Source: Nocardioides iriomotensis
Lineage (GTDB): Bacteria; Actinomycetota; Actinomycetes; Propionibacteriales; Nocardioidaceae
Direction: 5' to 3'
Length of the DNA stretch: 64,000 bases
Assembly: GCF_004168035.1 (NCBI RefSeq)
Contig: NZ_SDPU01000020.1
Location: 62,001-126,000 of the forward strand
Below are positions 2 to 64,000 of the stretch, piece after piece. The notes below the pieces were generated by a model, which worked only from the letters and a program-made list of their open reading frames with translations, did no database searches and was not told the origin of the DNA. A program made the position numbers and the translations under genes. Numbering within the stretch: the first letter of the stretch is position 1; every line of letters starts with the position of its first letter.

Positions 2-1720
2 CTGCTCCGTCAGTACCTCACGCCGTACCGGCGCGAGATCGCCGTCATCGTCGCGCTCCAGTTCGTCGCGACGATGGCCGCGCTCTACCTGCCCAGCCTC
101 AACGCCGACATCATCGACGACGGCGTGGCCCAGGGTGACACGGGCTTCATCGTGCGCACCGGCGCACTGATGCTCGGCGTCTCGCTCGTGCAGATCCTCT
201 GCAGCGTCGCCGCCGTGTACGTCGGGGCGCGGACCGCGAGCCTGCTCGGCCGCGACCTGCGCGCCTCGCTCTTCCGCCACGTCGGCTCGTTCTCCGGACG
301 CGAGCTGGCCGGCTTCGGCGCCCCGTCGCTGATCACCCGCACGACCAACGACGTGCAACAGGTGCAGATGCTCGTGCTGATGACCTTCACGATGATGGTC
401 ACCGCGCCGATCATGATGGTCGGCGGCGTGCTGATGGCCGTCCGGGAGGACCTCGGCCTGTCGTGGCTGGTCGCCGTCTCGGTGCCGCTGCTGTTCGCCT
501 CGGTCGGCCTGATCGCCTCGCGGATGGTGCCCGGGTTCCGCATCATGCAGACCCGGATCGACGGGGTCAACCGGGTGATGCGCGAGCAGATCACCGGCAT
601 CCGGGTGGTGCGCGCGTTCGTGCGCGAGCCCGTCGAGACCGAGCGGTTCGGCGAGGCCAACGCCGACCTGAGCCGCGTCGCGGTCAACGTCGGCCGCTGG
701 ATGGCCACGATGTTCCCGACCGTGATGCTCATCCTCAACGTGTCGAGCGTCGCCGTGCTGTGGTTCGGCGGGCACCGCGTCGACGACGGCGCGATGCAGG
801 TGGGTGCGTTGACCGCCTTCCTCGCCTACCTCGTGCAGATCCTGATGGCCGTGATGATGGCCAGCTTCATGCTGATGATGGTGCCGCGCGCGGCGGTCTG
901 TGCCGACCGCATCACCGAGGTGCTCGACACCGAGTCGTCCGTCGTACCGCCGGCCGACCCGGTCACCGAGCCCACCGGCTCCGGGCTGCGGATGCGTGGC
1001 GTCTCCTTCACCTACCCGGGCGCGGAGGCTCCGGTGCTCCGCGACGTCGACCTCGACGCGCGGCCCGGCCGGACGCTGGCCGTGATCGGCTCGACGGGTG
1101 CCGGCAAGACCACGCTGGTCAACCTGGTGCCGCGGCTGTTCGACGTGACCGGCGGCGTCGTCGAGGTGGCCGGCGTCGACGTGCGCCGGCTCGACCCCGA
1201 CGTGCTGTGGAGCCGGATCGGTCTCGTGCCGCAGAAGGCGTTCCTGTTCTCCGGCACGGTCGCCAGCAACCTCCGGCACGGCAAGCCCGATGCCACCGAG
1301 GAGGAGATGTGGCAGGCGCTCGAGGTCGCGCAGGCCCGTGACTTCGTGGAGGCGATGCCCGGCGGGCTCGAGGCGCCGATCGCGCAGGGCGGCACCAACG
1401 TCTCCGGCGGGCAGCGGCAGCGCCTCGCGATCGCCCGCGCGGTGATCCGGCGGCCCGAGGTCTACCTGTTCGACGACGCGTTCTCCGCGCTCGACCTGGC
1501 CACCGACCGGCGGCTGCGCGCCGCGCTGGCCCCGATCACCACCGACGCCACCGTCGTGGTCGTCGCCCAGCGTGTCTCCACGATCCTCGACGCCGACGAG
1601 ATCGTCGTGCTCGAGGACGGCGAGGTCGTCGGCCGCGGCACCCACGACGAGCTCGTCGCGACCAACGAGACCTACCAGGAGATCGTCGCGTCCCAGCTCA
1701 CCCCGGAGGAGGCGGCATGA
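2..1720 (+). CDS. ABC exporter half-transporter, subunit 1 (5' end outside window)
   Basis: This is a fused membrane-plus-ATPase half transporter that pumps a substrate out of the cell; the substrate cannot be read from sequence. The frame is already open at base 2, so the true start lies upstream. A multi-helix ABC exporter membrane region fills roughly the first 290 visible residues. The ATPase domain follows with Walker [10 protein letters not shown], signature VSGGQ and Walker B ending [10 protein letters not shown]. The residue after the Walker B aspartate is Asp rather than the catalytic Glu, a mark of the degenerate site in heterodimeric exporters such as LmrCD or TmrAB. The stop overlaps the start of the next ABC gene (ATGA), so the two are co-translated and probably form the heterodimer. 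Confidence 0.93.
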
Positions 1721-3717
1721 GCGACCGCAAGACCCTCAAGGTCACCGAGCGCGTCCAGATGGGCGGCGGCCCCGGCCGCGGCGGCCCGTTCGGCGGCGGC
1801 ATGGTGGGCCAGAAGTCGATGGACTTCGGCCCGTCCGCCAAGCGCCTCGTGGGCCGGCTGGCGCCCGAGCGCGGCAAGGTCGTCCTGGTGCTGCTGCTCG
1901 CGATCGCCTCGGTCACGCTCAGCGTCATCGGCCCGCGCGTCCTCGGCTTCGCGACGGACCTCATCTTCGAGGGCCTGTTCGGCCGCAACCTGCCCCCCGG
2001 CATGTCCAAGGCCGACGCCGTCGCCGCTCTCCGGGAGCGTGGCGACGACCGGCTCGCCGACATGCTCGCCGGCATGGACGTCGTGCCCGGTCAGGGCGTC
2101 GACTTCGGCGCGGTCGGCCACGTGCTGCTGCTCGTGCTCGGCGTGTACGTCGTCGCCTCGCTGCTCATGTGGCTCCAGGGCTACGTGCTCAACGACGTCG
2201 TGCAGTCCGCCGTACGCCGGATGCGCGACGACGTCGAGGCCAAGATCCACCGGCTGCCGCTGAGCTACTTCGACCGGCAGCCCCGCGGCGAGCTGCTGTC
2301 CCGGGTCACCAACGACATCGACAACATCAGCCAGACGCTGCAGCAGACCATGAGCCAGCTGCTCGTCTCGCTGCTCACCGTCGTCGGCGTGCTGGCGATG
2401 ATGTTCTCGATCTCGCCGACGCTCGCGCTGATCGCGTTGGTCACGGTGCCGGTCGGGATGGCGCTGACCGGCCAGATCATGAAGCGGTCGCAGGGCCTGT
2501 TCATCCAGCAGTGGCGCCGCACCGGCGCGCTCAACGGCCAGATCGAGGAGGCCTTCACCGGGCACAGCCTGGTCAAGGTGCTCGGTCGCCGGCGCGAGGT
2601 CGAGGCGGCCTTCGAGGCCGAGAACGACGAGCTCTACCAGGCGTCGTTCGGCGCGCAGTTCGTCAGCGGGCTGATCATGCCGGTGATGATGTTCCTCGGG
2701 AACCTCAACTACGTCGTGATCGCCGTCCTCGGCGGCCTCCGCGTCGCCAACGGCTCGATGAGCCTCGGCGAGGTGCAGGCGTTCATCCAGTACTCCCGCC
2801 AGTTCACCCAGCCGCTCACCCAGCTCGCCTCGATGGTCAACCTGCTCCAGTCCGGCGTCGCCTCGGCCGAGCGCGTCTTCGAGCTCCTGGACGCGGAGGA
2901 GGAGCCCGTCGAGTCCGACGCACCGCCGACGACCGGTGGCCGCGGCGAGGTCCGGTTCGAGGACGTGTCCTTCCGCTACGACCCCGACCGGCCGCTCATC
3001 GAGGACCTGTCTCTGGTCGCCCGGCCGGGCGAGACCGTCGCGATCGTCGGCCCGACCGGCGCCGGCAAGACCACCCTGGTCAACCTCGTCATGCGCTTCT
3101 ACGACGTCGACTCCGGCCGGATCACGCTCGACGGCGTCGACGTCGCGACGATGCGCCGTGCCGACCTGCGCGGCCGCACCGGCATGGTGCTGCAGGACAC
3201 CTGGCTGTTCGAGGGCACGATCCGCGACAACATCGCCTACGGCCGTCCGGGCGCGAGCGAGGAGGAGATCCTCGAGGCCGCGCGCGCGACGTACGTGGAC
3301 CGGTTCGTGCACAACCTGCCCGACGGCTACGACACCGTGATCGACGAGGAGGGCGGCTCGCTCTCGGCCGGCGAGCGGCAGCTCGTCACGATCGCCCGGG
3401 CGTTCCTCGCCAAGCCGGCGCTGCTGATCCTCGACGAGGCGACCAGCTCGGTCGACACGCGCACCGAGCTGCTGGTGCAGCACGCCATGGCCGCGCTGCG
3501 CACCGACCGCACCAGCTTCGTGATCGCGCACCGGCTGTCGACGATCCGCGACGCCGACCTGATCCTCGTGATGGAGGACGGCCGGATCGTCGAGCAGGGC
3601 AGCCACGACGAGCTGCTCGCCCGGGGCGGCGCCTACGCCGAGCTCTACCAGGCACAGTTCGCCGCGCCGGCCGACGACGCCGCGATCACGGCCGAGGAGC
3701 TCGGCGCCCCCGTGTGA
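1717..3717 (+). CDS. ABC exporter half-transporter, subunit 2
   Basis: The 666-residue partner of the upstream half transporter. After a Gly-rich cytoplasmic start (about 1-45) come the exporter membrane helices (about 50-350) and the nucleotide-binding domain (about 395-640). The ATPase motifs are complete: Walker [10 protein letters not shown], signature LSAGE, and Walker [13 protein letters not shown] with the catalytic Glu, then the switch histidine in IAHRLST. So this subunit supplies the competent Walker B, while its partner has Asp at that place. Start ATG overlaps the previous stop by four bases. Multidrug or lipid export is typical of the family, but nothing here fixes the substrate. 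Confidence 0.94.
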
Positions 3718-3748
3718 GGGGAGGGGACAGGGGTCGAGAACGAGGAAC

Positions 3749-3825
3749 GGCCCGTGGGCGGTGCGGTGTTCCCCTCAGGGAGGGGGTCCGCTCTCGAGCC
3801 GGACTCGCTCGAGCGCCCACGGGCC
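3749..3825 (-). ncRNA. Folded element closed by a 12-bp stem; 3' part of a small minus-strand transcript
   Basis: GGCCCGTGGGCG (3749-3760) and its exact reverse complement (3814-3825) close a 77-base element. Inside are two further perfect hairpins: CCCCTC/GAGGGG with a 3-base loop (3771-3785) and CTCGAGC/GCTCGAG (about 3794-3813). It could fold as a three-way junction on either strand. It lies after the stop of the plus-strand ABC gene and downstream of a minus-strand promoter and mini-ORF. It may be a bidirectional terminator, or the structured 3' part of a minus-strand small RNA; the multibranched form is more elaborate than a simple terminator. I do not recognise a named RNA family. Confidence 0.5.
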
Positions 3826-3892
3826 GGGTGACTGCCCTGGATTACCAGCGCGCACGACAACCATCGGCTGCGCCGTGCTGGTCGGTGCGCTG

Positions 3893-3931
3893 CTAGGAAG
3901 CAGCCACCTCACGCGTCCTGAAAGAATTCAC
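3893..3931 (-). CDS. 12-codon mini-ORF with perfect ribosome binding site
   Basis: GTG at 3931-3929 opens a frame encoding MNSFRTREVAAS and ending in TAG (3895-3893). Nine bases upstream is AAAGGAGGT (3949-3941), an uninterrupted match to the 16S anti-Shine-Dalgarno, the strongest such site I saw in the window. A promoter sits 30-60 bases further upstream. The peptide lies on the strand opposite both neighbouring genes, and no minus-strand gene follows before the convergent ABC gene. It is therefore not an ordinary leader of a downstream operon; a stand-alone short peptide or a dual-function small RNA fits better. Function unknown. The RBS, start and stop are seen; expression is inferred. Confidence 0.55.
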   Translation of the reverse strand: MNSFRTREVAAS

Positions 3932-3962
3932 TTCTGGACCACCTCCTTTCCCGTGTGCCCTC

Positions 3963-3992
3963 AGGCTACGACGGGGGACAAAGGCCCCTCAA
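3963..3992 (-). promoter_or_regulatory. Promoter for the minus-strand mini-ORF transcript
   Basis: Read on the minus strand, TTGAGG (3992-3987) and TAGCCT (3968-3963) are separated by 18 bases and fit a vegetative actinobacterial promoter. Transcription would begin near 3956, giving a short leader before the AAAGGAGGT site. The promoter is divergent from the MFS gene that starts at 4027. Predicted by pattern only. Confidence 0.45.
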
Positions 3993-4026
3993 GGGATTTC
4001 GCGGGTCGGATGAGAGGCTCTCGGTC

Positions 4027-5271
4027 GTGGCGAGACGGTGGAGGCGGGTGCTGACCGACGTCCGCCCCCTCCAGGTGTCCCCGCCGTACCGCCGGCTCTT
4101 CCTCGGCAACACCGTCGGGCAGCTCGGCCAGCAGATGACCGTCGTGACCATCGCGGTCCAGGTCTTCACGCTCACCGACTCGTCGTTCGCCGTCGGCCTG
4201 ATCGGTGTCCTCGGCCTGGTCCCGCTGGTCGGGTTCGGGCTGTACGCCGGCGCGATCGCCGACGCCATGGATCGGCGGCTGCTCGCACTCGTCGCCTCGG
4301 CCGGGTCGTGGCTGGTCTCCCTTGTGCTGGCCGCGCAGGCCTTCCTCGGCAACACGAACGTGCTCGTCATCTACACCTGTGTCGTCGTGCAGGCCGCCTG
4401 CTACGCCGCCACCAGCCCGGCCCGCGGCGCGATGATCGCCCGGCTCCTGCCGGCCGAGCTGCTGCCCGCCGCCAGCGCGCTCAACTCCGCGTCGTTCAAC
4501 CTGGGTTTCACGGTCGGCCCGATGCTCGGCGCGCTGCTCATCTCCGTCGGCGGGTTCGAGGTCGCCTACACTGCCGACGCGATCCTGTTCACCGCCACGC
4601 TGTACGCGATCTACCGCGTGCCGGCCATGCCGCCGGGCCGGGACAGCCCGCGCGCCGGCTTCCGCTCGGTGCTCGACGGGCTGGGCTTCCTGCGCCGCTC
4701 GCCGAACCTGCGGATGACCTTCGTGCTCGACCTGTGCGCGATGGTGTTCGCCCACCCCCGCGCGCTGTTCCCGGCGCTCGGCTACAAGGTCTTCGGCGGT
4801 GGGGCCGCGACGGTGGGCATCCTCCAGGCCGCCCCGGCCGTCGGCGCGCTGATGGCGTTCGTCGTGTCCGGATGGATCAGCCGGGTGCGGTGGCACGGCG
4901 TCGCGATCGTGCTGTCGATCCTCGTGTACGGCGCCGCGATCGGCTCGGTCGGCCTGGCCGGCTCGCTGTGGCTGGGCGTGGTGTTCCTCTGCATCGCCGG
5001 CGCCGCCGACTCGGTCAGCTCGGCGTTCCGCAACACCGTGCTCCAGGTCGCCGCGCCCGACGAGCTGCGCGGGCGGCTGCAGGGCGTGTTCATCGTGGTC
5101 GTGGCGGGGGGACCGCGCGCGGGCGACTTCCTCCTCGGCTCGGTCGGCGAGGCGACGTACGAACGGCTGGCGCTGGTCCTCGGCGGACTCGCCTGCATCG
5201 TCGGCGTGCTGGTCGCGGTCGCGATCCAGCGCTCCTTCCTGCGGTACGACGCCCTCCGCCCCACGCCCTGA
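4027..5271 (+). CDS. MFS transporter, EntS/MFS_3-like
   Basis: A 414-residue, 12-helix major facilitator. The N-terminal half resembles the enterobactin-exporter (EntS) subgroup: a short basic start, then LFLGNTVGQLGQQM and the ADAMDRR loop between helices 2 and 3. Substrate unknown; siderophore or drug export is typical of this subgroup. I chose GTG 4027 over the in-frame start at 3955 because the longer form would run through the divergent mini-ORF promoter, and because GAGGCT (4014-4019) lies seven bases upstream, as in the other leaderless genes of this window. It is a single gene with no regulator next to it. Confidence 0.85.
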   Translation: MARRWRRVLTDVRPLQVSPPYRRLFLGNTVGQLGQQMTVVTIAVQVFTLTDSSFAVGLIGVLGLVPLVGFGLYAGAIADAMDRRLLALVASAGSWLVSLVLAAQAFLGNTNVLVIYTCVVVQAACYAATSPARGAMIARLLPAELLPAASALNSASFNLGFTVGPMLGALLISVGGFEVAYTADAILFTATLYAIYRVPAMPPGRDSPRAGFRSVLDGLGFLRRSPNLRMTFVLDLCAMVFAHPRALFPALGYKVFGGGAATVGILQAAPAVGALMAFVVSGWISRVRWHGVAIVLSILVYGAAIGSVGLAGSLWLGVVFLCIAGAADSVSSAFRNTVLQVAAPDELRGRLQGVFIVVVAGGPRAGDFLLGSVGEATYERLALVLGGLACIVGVLVAVAIQRSFLRYDALRPTP

Positions 5272-21809: not shown

Positions 21810-21812
21810 TCT

Positions 21813-21886
21813 GGGCGCACACGACTGGCGCAGGTGGGCAACCACCAGGGAGTGCAAGGTCGAGCGCATCGAACGCCTGGGTGCCC
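21813..21886 (+). ncRNA. ZTP (pfl) riboswitch upstream of purH
   Basis: The consensus elements occur in order: GACTGGCG (21822-21829), hairpin GGTGG-GCAA-CCACC (21832-21845), AGGGAGTG, and the pseudoknot strand CGCCTGGGT (21874-21882). A stem pairs GCAC (21817-21820) with GTGC (21852-21855). ZTP riboswitches sense ZMP/ZTP, which builds up when 10-formyl-THF is short, and raise expression of purine and folate genes. PurH, just downstream, consumes ZMP (AICAR) and 10-formyl-THF, so the placement fits. TAGTCT (21807-21812) overlapping the purN stop could be a private -10 element. Confidence 0.92.
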
Positions 21887-21927
21887 TCGCTGATCGAACG
21901 ACACGAACGATCGACGAGGAGCAGCAC

Positions 21928-61952: not shown

Positions 61953-64000
61953 GTGCGGCTGAGCCTGACGCTCGTCGACGGCAGGAACGGCCGGCCGGTC
62001 GACGCCCTCGTCGACTTCGACACCTCCCAGCCGGTCGGTGACCTGGTGCCCGCGCTGGTGCGGCTGCTGGGGGAGCAGGTGCACGACTCGTTCGCGCGCC
62101 GCGTGCCCGTCTGGGTCGACGGCGAGGAGGTCGAGCCGCAGACCCCGGCCGGCGCGGCGGGGGTGCACAGCGGTGCCGTGCTCAGCCTGTTCGAGCCCGC
62201 CGACCGGGTCGCGCGCACCGCGCCCGCCGGCGTCGCCGAGCTGCGGGTCGTGTCCGGGCCCGGCGCCGGCCGGATCCACCGGCTGCCGCTCGGGGAGACG
62301 GTCGTCGGCAACGGGGCGACCGGCTGGTCGCTGCCCGACCTGCGGCTGCCGTCGAAGGCGCTGACGCTGGCCGTCGGCGCCGACGGCTCGGTCACCGTCA
62401 CCCCCGCGAGCGGGTTCGCCGTGGAGCTCGACGGCACGGAGGTCGAGGAGGGCGGCGCCGACTGGCCGGTCGGCGGCTACCTCGCCGCCGGCGGGACGGT
62501 CCTGGTGCGCGCGGAGGTGGGCGAGCCCGCCGCTGACGTCGAGGCTCGTCCCGACGAGGCGCTGGTCGACTTCAACCGGCCGCCGCGCATGCTGCCGCCG
62601 GACCGCGAGCGCAGCTTCCACCTGCCCGACCCGCCGCAGGAGCTGCGCAAGCGCCCGATCCCCTGGGTGATGGTCGTCGTACCCCTCGTCGTCGCGATGC
62701 CGATGGCGTACATCTTCGGCCCACGGATGCTGGTCTTCGCGCTGCTGTCGCCGGTGATGATCCTGGCCAACTTCTTCAGCGACCGGAAGAACAACCGCAA
62801 GGACGTCAAGGAGCGTCAGCAGAAGTACGACGAGACGCTCGCCTCCGTCACCGAGCGGATCGAGGCCGGACTGCTCGCCGAGCAGGCGGAGCGCCGGCTC
62901 TCGTGCCCCGACCCCGCCACGATGCTGATGCAGGCGATCGGCCCGGGGGCGCGCCTCTGGGAGCGCCGGCACAACGACCCCGACTACCTGCGGCTGCGCG
63001 TCGGCCTCGGTGAGCTGCCCGCGAGCATCAAGGTCGAGGAGCGCCGCGACAAGACCGACGCGGAGGCCGCGCCGCGCACGCTCGACCTGGTGCCGGTCTG
63101 GCTCGACGTCCAGCAGCTCGGCGTCGTCGGCGTGGCCGGCGACCTCGAGACAGCGCCGCCGATCGCGCACTGGATGGTCGCGCAGGCGGCGCTGCTGCAC
63201 AGCCCGCGCGACGTCCGCATCACCGTGCTGAGCGACGCCGAGGGCGAGAGCGACTGGAGCTGGGTGCGGTGGCTCCCGCACGCCCGCATCGGCGGGGACC
63301 CCGAGGCGCTCGCGCTCGGCACCCAGCAGGACTCCGTGGGCCGTCGCCTCGCCGAGCTGACCGCGCTGGTCGAGCAGCGGCAGGCCAACATCCGCGACAA
63401 GGTGCGCGCCACGCCCGACGTGCTCGTCGTGCTCGACGGCGCGCGGCGGCTGCGCACCCTCCCCGCCGTCGTCGACCTGCTCCGCCGCGGCCCGGCCGTC
63501 GGCGTGATGGTGCTGTGCGTCGAGGACGAGGTCCGGCAGCTCCCCGAGGAGTGCCGCGCGGTCGTCGCCTGCGCGGCGGGCGAGATACGGATCCAGGAGA
63601 CCGCGTCGGAGGGCACGGCCGGCATCACGCCGGACCTGGTCGAGGTCCCCTGGTGCGAGACCGTCGCCCGCGCCCTCTCGCCGCTGCGCGACACCACCCC
63701 GGAGGAGGAGGCGACCGGCCTGCCTGCCTCCGCGCGCCTGCTCGAGGAGATCAGGCTCGACCCGCCCACGCCCGAAGGCATCGCGCCGCGCTGGCTGCGC
63801 GGACGCACGACCGAGGTGGTCGTCGGTGCCGGGTACGACGGCCCGTTCCGGATCGACCTGCGCCGCGACGGCCCGCACGCCCTGATCGCGGGCACCACCG
63901 GCTCCGGCAAGTCGGAGTTCCTGCAGACGCTCGTCGCGTCGCTGGCGGTGGCCAACCGGCCCGACGAGCTGACCTTCGTGCTCGTGGACTACAAGGGCGG
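61953..64000 (+). CDS. EccC-like FtsK/SpoIIIE ATPase of a type VII secretion system (3' end outside window)
   Basis: About 682 codons are open from GTG 61953 to the window end. N-terminal beta-grasp-like (about 1-85) and FHA-like (about 90-195) regions precede two helices (about 230-272) and a cytoplasmic part with the first FtsK/SpoIIIE ATPase beginning (Walker A GTTGSGKSE, about 646-654; LVDYKGG at the end). EccC has three such ATPase domains and drives export of WXG100 substrates in ESX systems. No other ESX gene is visible upstream, so the cluster must continue past the right edge. A GGGGGA stretch lies upstream of the start. Confidence 0.85.
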   Translation, partial: MRLSLTLVDGRNGRPVDALVDFDTSQPVGDLVPALVRLLGEQVHDSFARRVPVWVDGEEVEPQTPAGAAGVHSGAVLSLFEPADRVARTAPAGVAELRVVSGPGAGRIHRLPLGETVVGNGATGWSLPDLRLPSKALTLAVGADGSVTVTPASGFAVELDGTEVEEGGADWPVGGYLAAGGTVLVRAEVGEPAADVEARPDEALVDFNRPPRMLPPDRERSFHLPDPPQELRKRPIPWVMVVVPLVVAMPMAYIFGPRMLVFALLSPVMILANFFSDRKNNRKDVKERQQKYDETLASVTERIEAGLLAEQAERRLSCPDPATMLMQAIGPGARLWERRHNDPDYLRLRVGLGELPASIKVEERRDKTDAEAAPRTLDLVPVWLDVQQLGVVGVAGDLETAPPIAHWMVAQAALLHSPRDVRITVLSDAEGESDWSWVRWLPHARIGGDPEALALGTQQDSVGRRLAELTALVEQRQANIRDKVRATPDVLVVLDGARRLRTLPAVVDLLRRGPAVGVMVLCVEDEVRQLPEECRAVVACAAGEIRIQETASEGTAGITPDLVEVPWCETVARALSPLRDTTPEEEATGLPASARLLEEIRLDPPTPEGIAPRWLRGRTTEVVVGAGYDGPFRIDLRRDGPHALIAGTTGSGKSEFLQTLVASLAVANRPDELTFVLVDYKG

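Follow-up and report, generated by a model that had tools for sequence, protein, structure and literature searches.

What does a small transcript do when it carries a strong ribosome-binding site, an ORF of 12 codons and no gene behind them? The question is raised by a minus-strand unit in Nocardioides iriomotensis. The window referred to throughout is the whole stretch of 64,000 nucleotides that was analysed (positions 62,001 to 126,000 of contig NZ_SDPU01000020.1). On one side of the unit a plus-strand ABC exporter gene, with the Pfam domains ABC_membrane and ABC_tran, has its 3' end at 3717; on the other side lies a plus-strand MFS gene with MFS_3 and MFS_1 domains. An initial annotation, made from the sequence, had described it as a stand-alone small transcript with a structured end, and all of the parts that it named are present in their places at 3992–3735. 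The promoter TTGAGG-18-TAGCCT matches the sequence, and AAAGGAGGT, nine bases, GTG, twelve codons and TAG (3931–3893) were all found. As far as this motif goes, the ribosome-binding site deserves to be called the best in the window: AAAGGAGGTG, a 10-mer, matches exactly once and gains no other match when one mismatch is allowed, where 0.88 matches would be expected by chance. There is also, as had been said, no minus-strand gene 3' of the unit, the next gene in that direction being the ABC exporter on the opposite strand.

Family identity and distribution

The suggestion that this unit was undescribed is not borne out. The Rfam covariance model of RF02471 (Ms_IGR-5) matches the minus strand at 3956–3742 with 111.5 bits (E 2.7e-24), above the curated cut-off of 45, and this is the only RF02471 match in the 4.7-Mb genome. 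By score the window RNA belongs to the same family, with which it shares the 5' region and the terminator. Compared with 200 shuffles, the fold of the RNA has z = -5.30, and this, the Rfam match and conservation in relatives rule out a chance origin. The description as a stand-alone unit with a 12-codon ORF, a strong Shine-Dalgarno (SD) sequence and a structured end is supported in all its parts, the ORF in the sense that it looks translated. The Rfam description has neither the ORF, nor the pseudoknot, nor the members in a second phylum reported below, and it pairs the SD with the end of the ORF. This is a known family, the anatomy of which can probably be corrected and extended by comparison. 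The coordinates are given in Table 1.

The M. smegmatis sRNAs were reportedly first described by Li et al. in 2013. In the passages of open-licence papers that were available, the S. lividans homologue is a transcript validated by RNA-seq (PMC8079986), the S. avermitilis homologue is an sRNA transcription unit (PMC8780764), ncMSMEG15794c of M. smegmatis overlaps IGR-5 (PMC10454040), and the homologues of M. abscessus and M. smegmatis carry ribosome footprints (PMC4974804). The available passages of the last paper report footprints on other mycobacterial sRNAs as well, and conclude that for the many protected ncRNAs translation is not clearly evidenced. Within these same passages on Ms_IGR-5 homologues, the ORF, the P1 helix and the pseudoknot are not described and no function is given. 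The name scr4389, guessed to be that of the Streptomyces homologue, was dropped when a literature search gave nothing.

Table 1. Features of the RF02471 unit in the window
Feature	Position	Strand	Basis or remark
Promoter	3963..3992	-	-35 TTGAGG 3992-3987, 18-nt spacer, -10 TAGCCT 3968-3963; sequence and relatives
RF02471 / Ms_IGR-5 RNA, whole match	3742..3956	-	cmscan 111.5 bits, gathering 45; z -5.30; 5' end guessed at ACAC (3956)
Extended Shine-Dalgarno GAAAGGAGGUGGUCC	3936..3950	-	Complementary to 16S 3' tail with one G.U
12-codon ORF and stop, GTG...TAG, MNSFRTREVAAS	3893..3931	-	Frame, start and stop conserved
Pseudoknot 5' strand GGAC, within ORF codons 5-6	3915..3918	-	Covariation with terminator loop
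P1 5' strand GGUGGCUGC, last base of codon 8 to second base of codon 11	3900..3908	-	Pair probability ~0.85 in window RNA
P2 hairpin 5' strand, UAG stop codon included	3885..3896	-	Minimum-energy fold; P2 pairs poorly supported, 51.0%
P2 hairpin 3' strand	3845..3855	-	Minimum-energy fold
Unpaired AAUCC-type stretch, between P2 and P1 3' strand	3838..3844	-	Column frequencies, 100 aligned loci
P1 3' strand GCAGUCACC, immediately 5' of terminator stem	3827..3835	-	Unpaired in RF02471 consensus
P3 terminator element	3748..3826	-	Outer stem 3826-3814 with 3760-3748; P3a 3813-3793; P3b 3790-3764
Pseudoknot 3' strand GUCC, P3a loop	3801..3804	-	Covariation with ORF tetramer
Pyrimidine-rich tail 3' of terminator stem	3735..3747	-	Sequence; weak U-tract

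The Rfam model matched 34 of 39 relatives. Across the phylum it matched 57 of 296 genomes, with 26 of the 296 above the cut-off, and R1, a covariance model built in this analysis from 15 sequences, matched 100 of 396 phylum genomes. RF02471 occurs in many, not all, of the sampled Actinomycetota. Fourteen previously negative actinobacterial genomes were still without a match under laxer filters, so the RNA has been lost or has diverged in some lineages, either by lineage-specific loss or by strong divergence. The genomes without a match include one from the window's own family (G214), G225, G257, G268, G353, G380 and eight others. Phages and plasmids gave no blastn match to the RNA and viral contigs no exact pattern match; these searches rule out a mobile or phage origin at the level of blastn-detectable or exact copies, divergent copies aside.

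The locus sets used below have the following limits. Of at least 119 stretches found by a pattern that fixes GGAGGTGRTCC, 80 were used, and four matches among relatives were left out of the locus set. Two loci truncated by contig ends (L052 and L070) are absent from all parsed sets, and L128, which is the same place as L271, was left out of the 207-locus and distinct-locus frame counts. Nine loci outside the 207-locus set (L203, L205, L206, L207, L209, L218, L219, L223 and L225) all have a 12-codon ORF in the usual frame.

Promoter, terminator and 16S docking site

At matching positions upstream, 156 loci share an A-rich stretch, TTG and TA...T. The promoter boxes of the window RNA are far from consensus, its tail UUCCUCGUUCUCG is a weak U-tract, and a simple consensus scan of 3000–5000 found neither a promoter-like nor a terminator-like site. 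The case for the promoter and the terminator therefore rests on conservation in the relatives.

The SD core GGAGGTG is all but invariant in 156 loci, an invariance that is partly built in, 80 loci coming from the SD-fixing pattern and the parser requiring the core; the model-found loci passing the SD parser number 117 of 117. The 15-mer GAAAGGAGGTGRTCC occurs twice in the 4.7-Mb genome, here and as its complement at a site which is taken to be the 16S 3' end. In E. coli numbering the docking stretch is the single-stranded tail that follows helix 45. When pairing with the 16S tail CUGGAUCACCUCCUUUC was assessed base by base in 207 loci, positions 1–15 failed in 16 of 3105 cells, the 16th tail position paired in 189 loci and the 17th in 69. 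The common changes in the docking site, A to G opposite U and C to U opposite G, keep the pairing. In this comparison, to which the same caveat on pattern and parser applies, the SD can base-pair with about 15 nt of the 16S tail, and its changes almost only preserve pairing.

Reading frame and peptide

Start codons (ATG, GTG or TTG, 6–13 nt 3' of the SD core) fall in the three frames relative to GAG in the ratio 88/11/3 in 114 distinct covariance-model-found loci, on which no ORF filter was placed. The distance from SD to GAG keeps no frame in the same loci (54/34/26). Among 193 distinct sequences of all kinds the frames are 167/15/3, with the first in-frame stop at the same place in 185. A canonical start with an ORF of 8–18 codons is present in 176 of 197 parsed loci, a further 20 have only a near-cognate start, and one (L022) lacks a usable start codon. 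Of 207 parsed loci, 196 have their selected ORF in the main frame, a count favoured by the parser, which required an ORF of 8–18 codons running past GAG. L030 was scored as out of frame owing to a GTG, and also has an in-frame CTG ORF. From start to P1 the distance is 23 nt in 125 loci, 29 nt in 39, 26 nt in 17, 32 nt in 14 and 38 nt in one. The start codons are TTG (93, a count on which the mycobacteria-rich sample weighs), ATG (66), GTG (27), CTG (10), ATT (5), ATC (4) and ATA (1), and stop codons interchange among loci in the same way. Comparison thus points to a conserved short ORF, probably translated, within the RNA pairings, as is expected of leader attenuators.

The peptide is a different matter. 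In 123 twelve-codon ORFs, none of the three positions of codons 2–4 is fixed. In codons 5 (nGG) and 7 (mostly nGT) the first position varies and positions 2 and 3 are fixed, so that the residue is replaced; in codon 6 (ACn) it is the third base that is free. Codons 8–9, GAG GTG, are invariant in 123 of 123, a figure to be read with the ORFs having been picked for containing EV and with the pattern and the parser requiring GRGGTG; all 117 model-found loci have GAGGTG. At codon 11, variation at the second position gives Ala or Val, with some silent change. The silent changes that the initial annotation looked for are therefore seen at the third position of codon 6 and partly at codon 11, and not at codons 5 and 7. 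The fixed bases of the ORF are those that pair, and most of the codon pattern is, judged by comparison, a reflection of paired bases rather than of residues.

Nine distant loci (L231, L234, L235, L238, L246, L247, L264, L266 and L270) have an ORF in another frame. Seven of these start with TTG and two with ATT, and from the same RNA segment they would encode unrelated peptides of 10–12 residues, such as LGDHCGGGSS and LLKTSGGDCR, which end in GGGSS, GGGCG, GGGCS, GGDCR or GGDCS. This is the strongest argument that translation has been kept and the peptide has not, and on the whole comparison translation looks conserved and the peptide does not. Constraint at the amino-acid level was not found: codons 2–4 have no third-position excess, and the nine loci use the other frame. 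On the codon pattern and these nine loci the peptide was rejected as the main reading, and the micropeptide that had been proposed is disfavoured accordingly.

Secondary structure

In the minimum-energy fold of the window RNA, GGUGGCUGC in the ORF pairs with GCAGUCACC before the terminator to form P1. The folded element of the initial annotation stands as to its outer stem, 3826–3748. Its 77 bases are only the terminator hairpin, and the fold begins within the ORF, the end of which pairs with 3827–3835. In 100 aligned loci, nine of them from the second phylum, 98.7% of P1 cells are paired, with changes on both sides at five of the nine pairs and six pair types at one position. The paired changes that the initial annotation had asked for in the stems are present. 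The covariation score of the whole structure is 0.602 in these loci against 0.173 when shuffled and at most 0.072 when slid, on alignments fitted to models that already hold P1, P3 and P3a, which helps P1, and with shuffles that ignore relatedness. An earlier alignment set gave 98.0% paired for P1 and a covariation score of 0.453. In an alignment-free duplex search of 77 loci, 70 allowed a comparison with the alignment. The P1 partner was the best one in 46 of these; in the remaining 24, mostly Streptomyces-like and distant, another site gave the best duplex.

The Rfam helix of the SD with the ORF end pairs in 63, 44, 95, 87, 89 and 93 of the 100 sequences at its six positions, and the RF02471 consensus leaves GCAGUCACC, the 3' strand of P1, unpaired. 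With 44 to 95 of 100 per position against 98.7%, this helix has weaker support than P1 and was rejected. Two P2 pairs in the model are also poorly supported, at 51.0% paired. The AAUCC-type stretch at 3838–3844 on the minus strand is conserved though unpaired, with one C present in 98 of 100 sequences.

Pseudoknot

The pseudoknot was not included in any of the models. The ORF tetramer is GGAC in 91 of 100 rows, 82 of which have GUCC in the terminator-loop slice. The other nine rows have GGAU (4), CGAC (3), CGAU (1) and AGAC (1). Seven of the nine have the exact complement in the loop slice, some of these seven being close relatives, one pairs through a G.U, and L063 has lost the loop. Real partners scored 5.17 against 4.42 for swapped partners (sd 0.08, 98 rows), or 5.15 against 4.42 (sd 0.09, 100 rows), in a swapping that takes no account of relatedness. 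Further pseudoknot types are GUGACC/GGUCAC, GCGACC/GGUCGC and UGUGACG/CGUCACA, and a type from the second phylum is GACU/AGUC. The partner was not found in L063, L231, L234, L238 and L246, the last four of which all have the other-frame form.

A local hairpin of GUCC in the SD with GGAC in the ORF, though part of the minimum-energy fold of the window RNA, was rejected on the evidence of the nine variant rows: the SD is unchanged in eight of them, changing in L063 only, whereas the terminator loop follows in eight, one of these by way of a G.U.

Members in a second phylum

A locus in a Spirochaetia bacterium (L128) prompted a search of its phylum, which is apparently Spirochaetota. R1 matched three of 100 genomes of this phylum. 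R2, a second model that was trained on three of the eleven loci, matched 11 of 296 (L271–L281), eight of these loci being new. Their G+C contents range from 28 to 65%, which argues against contamination by a single actinobacterium. The SD core and an ORF of 14–17 codons with EV near its end (GEVAER, CEVAEQ, CEVTLL and similar) are found in all 11, TTGAC is present upstream in eight, and several have a U-run 3' of the terminator. On the first three of these loci RF02471 scored below the cut-off in two (39.5 and 29.4 bits) and had no match in the third. The label 'Actinobacteria sRNA' is therefore too narrow.

Genomic context

A supported downstream gene within 1.5 kb was called, by a home-made heuristic with homology support, in 55 of the 80 pattern-found loci. 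It is on the opposite strand in 32 of the 55 and on the same strand in 23. These genes differ between lineages, none being constant, and in the window no co-directional gene lies behind the terminator. In the window and in L055, L061, L067 and L090 the RNA is convergent with the ABC exporter gene; in L063, L083, L100, L116 and L129 it follows this same gene on one strand. The RNA keeps its place beside the exporter (1717–3717 in the window) in opposite orientations, as if inverted in place. Having no constant downstream gene and being found in both orientations, the RNA behaves as an independent gene. The attenuator reading was rejected for want of a constant gene in the 55 loci. ARAGORN found neither a tRNA nor a tmRNA, and so no tRNA-like domain, in ten loci, and both identities were rejected on this ground.

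Proposed mechanism and alternatives

The promoter pattern, docking site, frame, P1, pseudoknot and terminator stem each have comparative support, and it seems that the act of reading matters and the tiny product does not. The preferred reading, at a probability of about 45%, is that of a stand-alone, ribosome-gated structured RNA which acts in trans or through its own turnover. On the comparative evidence the unit would be transcribed from its own promoter as an RNA of about 215 nt ending in its own hairpin, and the 5' end of this RNA can base-pair with some 15 nt of the 16S tail. The short ORF, of 12 codons here, would be opened by a start codon shortly downstream. By comparison the second half of this ORF also lies within the fold, codons 5–6 pairing with the terminator loop and codons 8–11 with the bases before the terminator. 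Counted from the first nucleotide of the start codon, the leading edge of an initiating ribosome is about 15 nt away, GGAC 13 nt and P1 23 nt, so an initiating ribosome would already compete with the pseudoknot. An elongating ribosome would open P1 and terminate at the P1/P2 junction, and ribosome-bound and ribosome-free molecules would have different 3' structures. Such a two-state RNA might read out translation capacity, in trans or through its own stability, since no gene is consistently placed in cis; this is the least certain step. The peptide would be a by-product. A gate of this kind, lacking an output, would be only part of a mechanism. A bolder form of the reading is more doubtful: that RF02471 is an ancient cross-phylum stand-alone switch, with the translating ribosome as its ligand, which reports translation capacity in trans without a cis gene or a functional peptide, the 16S tail being the dock, the ORF the sensor, and P1 with the pseudoknot the switch.

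The main rivals are two other readings that make the RNA itself the active molecule. It may be a decoy that captures the 30S subunit through the 16S tail, the start and the fold holding the ribosome and the ORF only stabilising the complex. The complementarity to about 15 nt of the tail with almost only pairing-preserving changes, and the occurrence of the 15-mer otherwise only at the genome's 16S 3' end, would suit this, as would a strong dock with a weak start, TTG being the commonest start (93 of 206 ORFs in the mycobacteria-rich sample) and near-cognates also being used. A decoy requires neither a reading frame nor a fixed stop, yet both are kept, and it is considered unlikely. A conventional trans-acting antisense sRNA, binding target mRNAs through its SD-like region or its AAUCC-type stretch, is likewise unlikely: the RNA is a stand-alone unit with its own terminator and a conserved unpaired AAUCC-type stretch, but such an sRNA needs neither the frame constraint nor covariation within the ORF.

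The readings that depend on a product or a neighbouring gene fare worse than the ribosome-gated RNA. That a 12-residue micropeptide acts in the cell is highly improbable. In its favour are the apparent conservation of TREVA(A) within the class, silent changes at codon 6 and partly at codon 11, and the ribosome footprints on homologues reported in the available passages of PMC4974804; against this, most of the conserved residues are encoded by bases that form P1 and the pseudoknot, codons 5 and 7 change their first base and codons 2–4 vary freely, and an unrelated peptide comes from the other frame in nine loci. Still less credence is given to a cis-acting leader or attenuator of the next gene, governed by translation of the leader ORF. 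The ORF, pairings and terminator are arranged as in a leader-peptide attenuator and 23 of 55 loci have a same-strand downstream gene, but here the next gene is the ABC exporter on the opposite strand, as it is on the opposite strand in 32 of 55 loci, the genes vary by lineage, and in relatives the RNA has either orientation beside the same exporter gene.

Comparison with known systems

Leader-peptide attenuators, such as tnaC, erm and the trp leaders, are alike in having a short ORF with an SD, translation of which disturbs pairings ahead of a terminator; they differ in that the window RNA has no regulated gene behind its terminator, and there is no competition between that terminator and P1. 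Among dual-function sRNAs, those that carry a short ORF (RNAIII, SgrS, Spot 42/SpfP) are likewise stand-alone. In these the peptide is reported to act, whereas in RF02471 the peptide sequence, and even its frame, is not conserved. Like the window RNA, tmRNA is a structured, pseudoknotted RNA with a short internal ORF, but the ORF of the window RNA has its own SD and start, and ARAGORN was negative in the ten loci. Frameshift or stall pseudoknots resemble it in being placed just ahead of a ribosome; the RF02471 pseudoknot differs in being reachable by an initiating ribosome, in an ORF of 12 codons with no second frame that continues.

Comparison gives an sRNA catalogued as non-coding a conserved frame but no conserved peptide, corrects its fold and extends its membership to a second phylum. 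Should the gate prove real, bacteria have a stand-alone means of converting ribosome traffic into RNA structure, beside attenuators and riboswitches. The question of Ms_IGR-5 function becomes testable by a few point changes that separate peptide, frame, docking and fold.

Other features of the window

A minus-strand ORF of 644 aa at 3606–1672, antisense to the ABC exporter gene, is taken as a high-G+C artefact. A ZMP/ZTP riboswitch aptamer (RF01750) is present at 21811–21889 of the window on the plus strand, with 45.1 bits against a cut-off of 39.
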